NCBI RefSeq assembly: GCF_024125425.1
Contig: NZ_JAMXWN010000001.1
Coordinates: 124,001 to 188,000 of the forward strand
DNA length: 64,000 bases
From: Sporolactobacillus kofuensis
GTDB taxonomy: Bacteria; Bacillota; Bacilli; Bacillales; Sporolactobacillaceae
Direction: 5' to 3'
The translations under genes and the position numbers were made by a program. A model generated the notes under the pieces. That model did no database searches, was not told the origin of the DNA, and worked only from the letters and a program-made list of their open reading frames with translations. Below, one piece after another: positions 73 through 33,159 of this stretch (position 1 is its first letter; every line of letters begins with the position of its first letter).

Positions 73-516
73 ATGATTGCAACACTTGAGAATGCCTCAT
101 TATTGGATGAGGCAGATGAACTCGCTTCAATGGTGATTCAGTCTGAGATCTATGCCGAATACATGCTTAGCAAACAAAGGTTTGAACAAGATAAAGAGGC
201 CCAGCGCTTAGTGGGAATTTTTCTTAAAGTTAGAGAAAAGTATGATGAAGTGCAACGCTTTGGAAGGTATCATCCTGATTATAAACCAGTCATCAAGGAA
301 ATGATGGAGAGCAAACGCGAACTGGATACTTACCCATTAATTGCTGATTACAAAAAAAGTGAAAAGAGACTGAGTGATTTACTTGGTGAGTTGAGTATGG
401 TGCTTGCACACTCAGTATCCGAGTCGATAAAAGTACCAACCGGTGACCCATTCTACGATCGCTCCTGTGGTACAGGATGTGGTTCCGGAGGAAAATGCGG
501 TTGCCACACAAAATAA
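73..516 (+). CDS. ricF: RicF/YlbF, subunit of the RicAFT (YmcA-YlbF-YaaT) complex
   Basis: A 147-residue helical protein of the YlbF/YmcA family. In B. subtilis YlbF joins YmcA and YaaT in a complex that carries Fe-S clusters, works with RNase Y in mRNA maturation, and is needed for competence, sporulation and biofilm formation. The helical body covers about residues 1-120. The tail is rich in Gly and Cys, with cysteines at 132, 136, 142 and 144, which fits Fe-S ligation. The length matches the family (about 149 residues). The ATG follows a strong GGAGGTGG ribosome site. ylbG follows at once, as in B. subtilis. The family is clear; the cluster-binding role of these particular cysteines is taken from the family. 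Confidence 0.93.
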   Translation: MIATLENASLLDEADELASMVIQSEIYAEYMLSKQRFEQDKEAQRLVGIFLKVREKYDEVQRFGRYHPDYKPVIKEMMESKRELDTYPLIADYKKSEKRLSDLLGELSMVLAHSVSESIKVPTGDPFYDRSCGTGCGSGGKCGCHTK

Positions 517-583
517 TGAAGCCGGTTATTATGCGTCACAAAGAGATAGAATGGCTTTTACAGATATAAGGGGTGGTCTGCCG

Positions 584-856
584 GTGGATATACAACAAAG
601 AGATGGATTAGTCGTCTGGTTGTATAATACGAAGTATTTACGTGTCCTCAGACGTTATGGATATGTGCATTATGTATCGAAACGGATGAAATATGCGTTA
701 CTTTATTGCGATCATGATCAAACTGAAGAAACACTGAATCAGCTCGCAAAGCTGAAATTTGTAAAGCAAGTTGATCCGTCACATCTACAAGAAATTCCGA
801 CGGTTTATGAAAAGGGAAAATCGAAATTCGAAATTAAAGATGAAATCTATAATTAA
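584..856 (+). CDS. ylbG: YlbG family protein (DUF2129)
   Basis: A 90-residue protein with the YlbG core, including the HYVSKRMKYALLYCD stretch. The function of this family is not established. I chose GTG 584 over the longer in-frame ATG at 551, because AAGGGGTGG at 568-576 sits at a good distance from the GTG and the resulting 90 residues equal the usual YlbG length. The open frame continues upstream into ricF, but no ribosome site supports an earlier start. It lies between ricF and the csfG locus, the same order as in B. subtilis, and is probably cotranscribed with ricF. Confidence 0.88.
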   Translation: MDIQQRDGLVVWLYNTKYLRVLRRYGYVHYVSKRMKYALLYCDHDQTEETLNQLAKLKFVKQVDPSHLQEIPTVYEKGKSKFEIKDEIYN

Positions 857-962: not shown

Positions 963-989
963 AAAAAAAACCCGCAGTCAAACTGCGGG
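963..989 (-). terminator. Terminator of the csfG-like RNA
   Basis: CCCGCAGT (971-978) pairs with ACTGCGGG (982-989). On the minus strand the hairpin is followed by eight T residues (963-970). The plus side has no comparable T-run, so the terminator serves minus-strand transcription. Confidence 0.8.
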
Positions 990-1103
990 CTGTCTTTACG
1001 CATCACATCACAGATGCAAGACAATGGGAGAGGAGAAACCGGCGGATACTTATGGGGAAACGTAAGCATCCGCGGTTGGGCCAACATCGCGAAGGATGTT
1101 GCC
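963..1103 (-). ncRNA. csfG: CsfG-like sporulation small RNA
   Basis: The ylbG-rsmD gap has no credible gene on the plus strand, but on the minus strand it has the layout of a small RNA of about 140 nt. It has three parts: a hairpin with CAACATC/GATGTTG arms (1081-1103); a longer hairpin pairing GCGGATGCTTA with TAAGTATCCGC that exposes a TTTCCCC loop; and a second C-rich segment (CTCCTCTCCC). It ends in a perfect 8-bp terminator hairpin at 971-989 followed by eight U residues. B. subtilis csfG, a forespore sRNA with C-rich single-stranded motifs conserved in endospore formers, lies in this same ylbG-ylbH gap. Identity is inferred from position and architecture, not from an alignment. The transcript start is estimated from the promoter. 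Confidence 0.72.
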
Positions 1104-1109
1104 AAAGAT

Positions 1110-1140
1110 TATTATTTACAAGTTTATGGAAATCTATACA
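1110..1140 (-). promoter_or_regulatory. Sigma-F/sigma-G-type promoter for csfG
   Basis: On the minus strand TGTATA (1135-1140) is followed after 18 bases by AATAATA (1110-1116). This fits forespore sigma-factor promoters (TGMATA, then a CATWWTA-like -10). It points straight into the hairpins of the csfG-like RNA, about 7 bases before the presumed start. Confidence 0.5.
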
Positions 1141-1271: not shown

Positions 1272-1856
1272 GTGAGGGTAATCTCCGGAGAAAACAAAGG
1301 TCGGAAATTAAAGGCCGTTAGCGGGAGAATGACCAGACCAACCACAGATAAAGTTAAAGAAACAATTTTTAATATGATTGGTCCTTTCTTTGAAGCTGGA
1401 ATGGCCTTGGATCTTTATGGAGGAAGTGGAGGACTAGGTATCGAAGCACTTAGCCGAGGTGTTCATCATACGGTTTTTGTAGACCGGGCAGGCGGTGCAT
1501 GTCAAGTCATTCACGAAAATTTGAAACTCTGCGGTTATGAAGCACGTTCGACAGTTTTACAAATGGACTCCAGTCGAGCACTCGAGAAGTTATCGAATGA
1601 TCAAAGGTCTTTTGATCTTGTTTTTCTTGACCCACCTTACGCGAAGCAACATCTGCGTCAGGATCTTGACACTTTAATTATGAAAAATATGCTGGCACAG
1701 GATGCAACTGTAGTAGTTGAACACGAGGAAACAGTCCCTCTGCCCGACGTCATTGATGACCGGCTTGTTCGGGTGAAATACCGGACCTATCAAGGACAAA
1801 CAGCTGTTTCAATCTATAACTTTCATCCTGATCAAGGAAGTGAGCATGTTGAGTAA
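1272..1856 (+). CDS. rsmD: 16S rRNA (guanine(966)-N2)-methyltransferase RsmD
   Basis: A 194-residue Rossmann-fold methyltransferase that uses S-adenosylmethionine to methylate G966 of 16S rRNA in the small subunit. Visible signatures are the N-terminal [12 protein letters not shown] stretch, the SAM-binding [14 protein letters not shown] loop (about 47-60) and the catalytic DPPY motif at 120-123. The length is normal. The start is GTG 1272 behind GTAGGAGGAAAC. The end overlaps the start of coaD, so the two are translationally coupled, as in B. subtilis (ylbH-ylbI). Confidence 0.95.
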
Positions 1857-32913: not shown

Positions 32914-32919
32914 TGAAAC

Positions 32920-33159
32920 ACTGTGACAGGGAGAGTAGTCGTTGCAAGGTCACTCAGCGAGCTGGGGATTGGTGAAAGCCTAGCGCGGACAGTAACGATG
33001 AACATCACCCTTGAGTTTGGATATGAAAGGCCATGAAAACCCGTTGGCCAATTAATTTCCAACGTTTATTCGCGTTAAGAAGATAATGAGTGGCAGAGTT
33101 TTCTGCTATTAGGGTGGTACCGCGGTCCTTCCGTCCCTTTGGGATGGAAGGACTTTTTT
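32920..33159 (+). promoter_or_regulatory. Isoleucine T-box riboswitch upstream of ileS
   Basis: The stem I region has the GAGAGTAGTCGTTGC start and the GGTGAAAGCC distal element, then the specifier loop GAACATCACC with the isoleucine codon ATC at 33004-33006. The T-box sequence AGGGTGGTACCGCGG is at 33111-33125. The terminator pairs GTCCTTCCGTCCC (33125-33137) with GGGATGGAAGGAC (33141-33153) before six T residues. Uncharged tRNA-Ile should favour the antiterminator and allow ileS transcription. Confidence 0.97.

Follow-up and report, generated by a model that had tools for sequence, protein, structure and literature searches.

The window is the whole 64,000-nt stretch of DNA analysed here. 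Near its left end lie ylbF, ylbG and rsmD (also named ylbH), all on the plus strand, and the gap between the ylbG stop at 856 and the rsmD start at 1272 contains a 141-nt element on the minus strand. In this Sporolactobacillus-like genome, the element (963-1104) is, with a high degree of confidence, the csfG gene. The locus consists of the following features.

73..516, plus strand: ylbF (Com_YlbF), neighbouring gene (Pfam PF06133).
443..856, plus strand: ylbG (DUF2129), neighbouring gene (Pfam PF09902, residues 53-122); the coordinates are those of the longest open frame, the true start being further downstream.
963..1104, minus strand: the sRNA gene assigned to csfG, predicted transcript of ~141 nt with its 5ʹ end placed from the promoter (RF00516 on the complement; model R1).
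963..991, minus strand: Rho-independent terminator and T-run.
1026..1038, minus strand: CU-rich segment UUUCUCCUCUCCC, invariant (44 of 44 aligned sequences) and mostly unpaired, a candidate target-binding site.
1037..1077, minus strand: central stem, made of outer AACCG/CGGTT pairs and GCGGATGCTTA/TAAGTATCCGC with one G-U, closing a conserved UUUCCCC loop.
1082..1101, minus strand: 5ʹ hairpin CAACATC...GATGTTG, beyond the Rfam model (fold and alignment).
1111..1139, minus strand: sigma-F/sigma-G type promoter, with -35 GTATA at 1139-1135, an 18-nt spacer and -10 AATAAT at 1116-1111.
1272..1856, plus strand: rsmD/ylbH methyltransferase gene, neighbour (Pfam PF03602).

A first-pass annotation of this DNA had proposed a CsfG-like sporulation sRNA in the gap and had named a search with a CsfG model as one check. 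Such a search recovers the element in two ways. The Rfam family RF00516, termed the ylbH leader (Rfam release 15), matches the complement with 67.3 bits (plus strand 961-1078; cut-off 50) and stops short of the 5ʹ hairpin, and the minus-strand model R1 scores 126.6 bits at 963-1103. R1 was built from 44 homologues, and part of its score arises by construction because the window copy is among them. No Rfam family besides RF00516 exceeds its cut-off on either strand of the csfG stretch, where the best minus-strand match has an E value of 0.045 and 19 bits. Elsewhere in the window, Rfam places a T-box leader at 32914-33141 on the plus strand (124.7 bits).

The proposed identity is borne out: CsfG is matched in location and strand, in the type of promoter, in the terminator and in the C-rich loops. 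The element is indeed located between ylbG and rsmD in minus orientation, on the strand opposite to both. It had also been termed antisense to the flanking genes, which is correct for orientation and incorrect for overlap; the csfG RNA lies inside the gap and touches neither coding region, although it could overlap untranslated RNA of ylbG or rsmD. B. subtilis CsfG (Marchais et al. 2011, RNA Biol 8:358) is described here as it appears in excerpts of papers citing that work. To that extent, the two RNAs share the ylbG–ylbH gap, the strand, CU-rich unpaired segments, a sigma-F/G-type promoter and a terminator.

The predicted RNA is structured. Its GCGGATGCTTA/TAAGTATCCGC stem, described earlier as fully paired through a G-T, pairs over 11 positions including this one G-U. 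The strong terminator that had been noted is present on the minus strand at 991-969 as AGCCCGCAGT-TTG-ACTGCGGGTT followed by a T-run of eight T, and a variable 3ʹ stem is located between this terminator and the CU-rich segment UUUCUCCUCUCCC. Of the 170 columns of the 44-sequence alignment A1, 52 show no variation, and most of these fall within the central stem and the CU-rich segments. At least three of the aligned sequences are cut short at the 3ʹ end, as the T-run rule ended them too soon. The exposed C-rich loops of the first-pass annotation correspond to the CU-rich unpaired segments, which do not vary across the 44 sequences. Covariation is modest, with 3 of 19 pairs changing on both sides, all of them in the 5ʹ hairpin (three of its seven pairs). 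Relative to B. subtilis CsfG, csfG of Sporolactobacillaceae lacks 3 nt after CCGCGG.

Homologues were collected from 80 rsmD loci of named genomes and from further genomes. A string search found the csfG core in 86 of 137 loci, 70 of which were left after the removal of near-duplicates. Promoter conservation and coding potential were tested on these 86 loci (70 non-redundant). This search missed true csfG genes of Fictibacillus, Rossellomorea, Lederbergia and others, which were found by R1. The sigma-F/G-like promoter claimed for the window copy (GTATA, an 18-nt spacer and AATAAT) is strongly conserved: the strict pattern is present within the 70 nt ahead of csfG in 60 of 70 homologues versus 0 of 11,856 background windows, drawn at random from the same loci. 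Even the ten loci that a looser pattern does not match show GTATA, together with a variant -10 element. Lineages differ in the details, in that most Sporolactobacillaceae csfG promoters have an 18-nt spacer and GT before the -10 element, whereas many of those in Bacillaceae have 17 nt and GG. The sigma F consensus features GG ahead of the -10 element and, like the sigma-F/G consensus used for the promoter call, is general background knowledge. Judged by this consensus, the promoter of the window csfG looks more sigma-G-like.

A 106-aa open frame at 785-1105 on the minus strand was considered as a small protein and rejected; every frame is interrupted by a stop in at least 44 of the 86 homologues. 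Furthermore, the spacing between the conserved blocks of csfG shifts by 1 and 2 nt among these homologues. Because of these stops and shifts, csfG is regarded as not protein-coding.

RF00516 covers the same DNA and shares an aligned block with csfG but models the opposite strand, and Rfam types the family as 'Cis-reg; leader'. On that account, the conserved element would be a plus-strand leader RNA that controls rsmD in cis. The family does score on the plus strand, and folding offers this account some support. Fold energy is -57.8 kcal/mol for the 141 nt of the minus strand, compared with -33.8 ± 3.5 for shuffled sequences (z -6.9), and -57.4 for the plus strand (z -5.7 versus shuffles); of the 44 homologues, 34 have a slightly lower energy on plus. 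Moreover, plus-strand RNA would have U-G as the invariant pair at the base of the loop, where minus-strand RNA has A-C. The predicted minus-strand pairs comprise 19 G-U cells versus 3 A-C cells, a count taken over pairs that were chosen on the minus strand. Fold energy and G-U counts therefore fail to decide the strand and partly favour plus, and structure alone is compatible with a leader. The promoter and terminator evidence, however, is asymmetric. No conserved promoter was found for rsmD-strand transcription ahead of rsmD: in the 70 homologues, the leader strand carries the F/G motif in none and a sigma-A-like pattern in three, nothing comparable to the very strongly conserved minus-strand promoter. 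On the plus strand, the terminator hairpin is followed by only a weak CTGTCTTT tail. Additionally, according to an excerpt of PMC3574147, a northern blot in B. subtilis detected no RNA from the 'ylbH leader' strand and only RNA from the opposite strand, which is CsfG. The strand is called minus because of the promoter, the terminator T-run and this northern blot, and a plus-strand leader is correspondingly very improbable.

It has also to be asked whether both strands matter, with forespore csfG pairing in cis with a read-through ylbFG–rsmD mRNA made at other times. csfG and the flanking genes are opposed, the gap contains no strong plus-strand terminator, and a B. licheniformis RNA-seq study, in the portion of PMC3871023 drawn on here, tabulates CsfG as antisense to ylbG and ylbH. 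Conservation across the 44 sequences is nevertheless centred on unpaired CU-rich segments, which perfect antisense pairing would not require, and pairing in cis is likewise given very little credence. The minus-strand sRNA is the preferred reading. RF00516 places csfG on the wrong strand, under the heading of cis-regulatory leaders. The presence of csfG is confirmed in a Sporolactobacillus-like genome, and Rfam-based annotation is shown to misplace it. The recognition of a known spore sRNA in another spore former is ordinary in itself.

The distribution of csfG closely follows that of the forespore sigma factor SigG. RF00516 detects csfG in all 26 genomes of the family, in 188 of 199 genomes of the order at E ≤ 0.001 (187 over the cut-off) and in 183 of 299 genomes of the class (152 over the cut-off). 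SigG (TIGR02850) is over its cut-off in 191 of the 199 order genomes and in 186 of the 299 class genomes, with 208 of the latter matching at E ≤ 1e-100. Among the 299 class genomes, 182 have both, one has csfG only, 26 have SigG only and 90 have neither (Fisher 3e-51, a value that ignores shared ancestry). The restriction of csfG to spore formers is evident from the 182 of 183 csfG-bearing class genomes that have SigG; the single csfG-only genome, G420, has a 30-bit match, which is below the cut-off. Conversely, csfG is not detectable in 26 of the 208 SigG-bearing class genomes, 17 of which belong to one family (f49). The 11 csfG-negative genomes of the order comprise four in which SigG is missing (best match ~1e-37) and seven with a diverged SigG (E 1e-136 to 1e-141). 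SigG of the window's own genus, at ~1e-143, is only slightly less diverged, and this genus keeps csfG; the link between diverged SigG and absence of csfG is therefore a tendency and not a rule.

Named genomes show the same pattern. R1 finds csfG in 40 of the 80 named rsmD loci, in every case on the strand opposite to rsmD, and the other 40 are all, by their titles, from Planococcaceae genera or lactic acid bacteria. In whole-genome searches, R1 found csfG in five of five named genomes chosen as positives, in none of 10 Lysinibacillus, Solibacillus and Ureibacillus genomes, in none of three Planococcus genomes and in none of four lactic acid bacteria. No SigG at E ≤ 1e-100 was found in the Planococcus or lactic acid bacterial genomes, and the 10 Lysinibacillus, Solibacillus and Ureibacillus genomes (loci L036, L041, L042, L044, L046, L048, L051, L052, L062 and L066) keep a diverged SigG (381-400 bits; curated cut-off 457). 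This last group forms spores. Genomes without SigG thus have no csfG either, and csfG is likewise missing from the Lysinibacillus/Solibacillus/Ureibacillus group with its diverged SigG; of the sampled genomes whose SigG is intact, nearly all carry csfG. The csfG-free members of this group represent natural experiments, and searches for targets can contrast lineages. A literature search, with most subscription papers outside its range, retrieved no paper joining CsfG with Sporolactobacillus or Lysinibacillus.

Second csfG copies were also considered and rejected. The 11 weak additional RF00516 matches, spread over 10 genomes, score 28-34 bits, below the cut-off of 50, do not have the two conserved CsfG blocks together and obtain ~21 bits or less, or nothing, from R1. 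The second match in the window's own genome reaches 16.7 bits. All are treated as chance or partial look-alikes.

CsfG is under the control of sigma F and sigma G in B. subtilis (PMC8216469, in the part consulted), and excerpts of the citing papers further describe CsfG there as transcribed from the minus strand, controlled in the forespore and associated with Hfq. Expression of csfG in the present organism is predicted from the DNA. By analogy, forespore RNA polymerase with SigF or SigG would use the minus-strand GTATA...AATAAT promoter, begin transcription near 1104 and end it at the terminator near 963 to yield a structured RNA of ~141 nt. The exposed UUUCUCCUCUCCC segment and the UUUCCCC loop may then pair with G/A-rich Shine-Dalgarno regions of forespore mRNAs, which would block translation or alter mRNA stability. 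That the CU-rich segments act in this way, by pairing with Shine-Dalgarno regions and changing translation or stability, is the probable mechanism.

Other sRNAs of the Firmicutes offer a precedent. RoxS/RsaE and FsrA have C-rich unpaired segments that are thought to pair with mRNA, as proposed for csfG, and in RoxS the pairing elements are the C-rich regions (PMC8216469 and PMC4409812, in the sections consulted). Their control differs from that of csfG, and RsaE gives no Rfam match on the csfG stretch even at an E value of 10. The consulted part of PMC4409812 counts three C-rich regions in CsfG, compared with two clear blocks seen here. The same body of excerpts states that no CsfG target has been identified. 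UUUCUCCUCUCCC is complementary to G/A-rich ribosome-binding sequence. In the window's own genome, complements of UUUCUCCUCUCCC with at most one mismatch are found in csfG itself and at one other site, and a reversed control gives two; there is no enrichment. The other near-complement (L180, C8:59589-59601) lies at the Shine-Dalgarno site of a 331-aa open frame, a candidate target that, given the control value of two, carries no statistical weight.

A further connection of csfG is with phages. Two related viral contigs, L159 (41 kb) and L161 (16 kb), carry 34 nt identical to csfG beside a tyrosine integrase gene (behind it, within L161:1366-1700 and L159:5760-6070). The integrase is full-length in L161, and the open frame in L159 represents only its C-terminal 138 aa; the region behind the gene is alike in both contigs. 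There, the 34-nt core stands between GCGCACAAA-type repeats, which resemble integrase arm sites, and a hairpin with a T-run comes after the core. Because of this layout of integrase and arm-like repeats, L159 and L161 are read as containing a probable attP with a csfG core. That csfG serves as the attachment site (attB) of temperate phages has about an even chance of being correct. The phage hairpin and T-run look as if they would supply a replacement 3ʹ end, leaving the sRNA intact after integration. As an alternative, the phages may make a CsfG mimic that acts on host sporulation RNAs; the CU-rich segment is also left unpaired in the fold of the L159/L161 region, which counts toward a phage CsfG-like RNA. 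If csfG does serve as attB, it could be altered by prophages; either reading, attB or mimic, would, if true, connect a forespore sRNA with the life cycles of phages.

No integrated prophage was seen, and named phages yielded no match to csfG. Close relatives of the integrase occur in two of 398 class genomes, with no csfG core beside them. Its best matches in named phages are from Paenibacillus larvae phages, at 36% identity, and the P. larvae phage region L174 has no csfG core either. Among the papers searched, none joins ylbH with a prophage and attB, or CsfG with an integrase. A third viral contig (L162:1-70) opens at its edge with the 3ʹ half of csfG and the terminator, followed by amidase and phage lysis genes, and this start is a possible prophage junction; no repeat was found at the other end of the contig. 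Matches in the viral contigs L160, L163 and L169-L171 fall within open frames, look like chance and were set aside. On plasmids, csfG occurs in one record, an 807-kb replicon of Bacillus velezensis.
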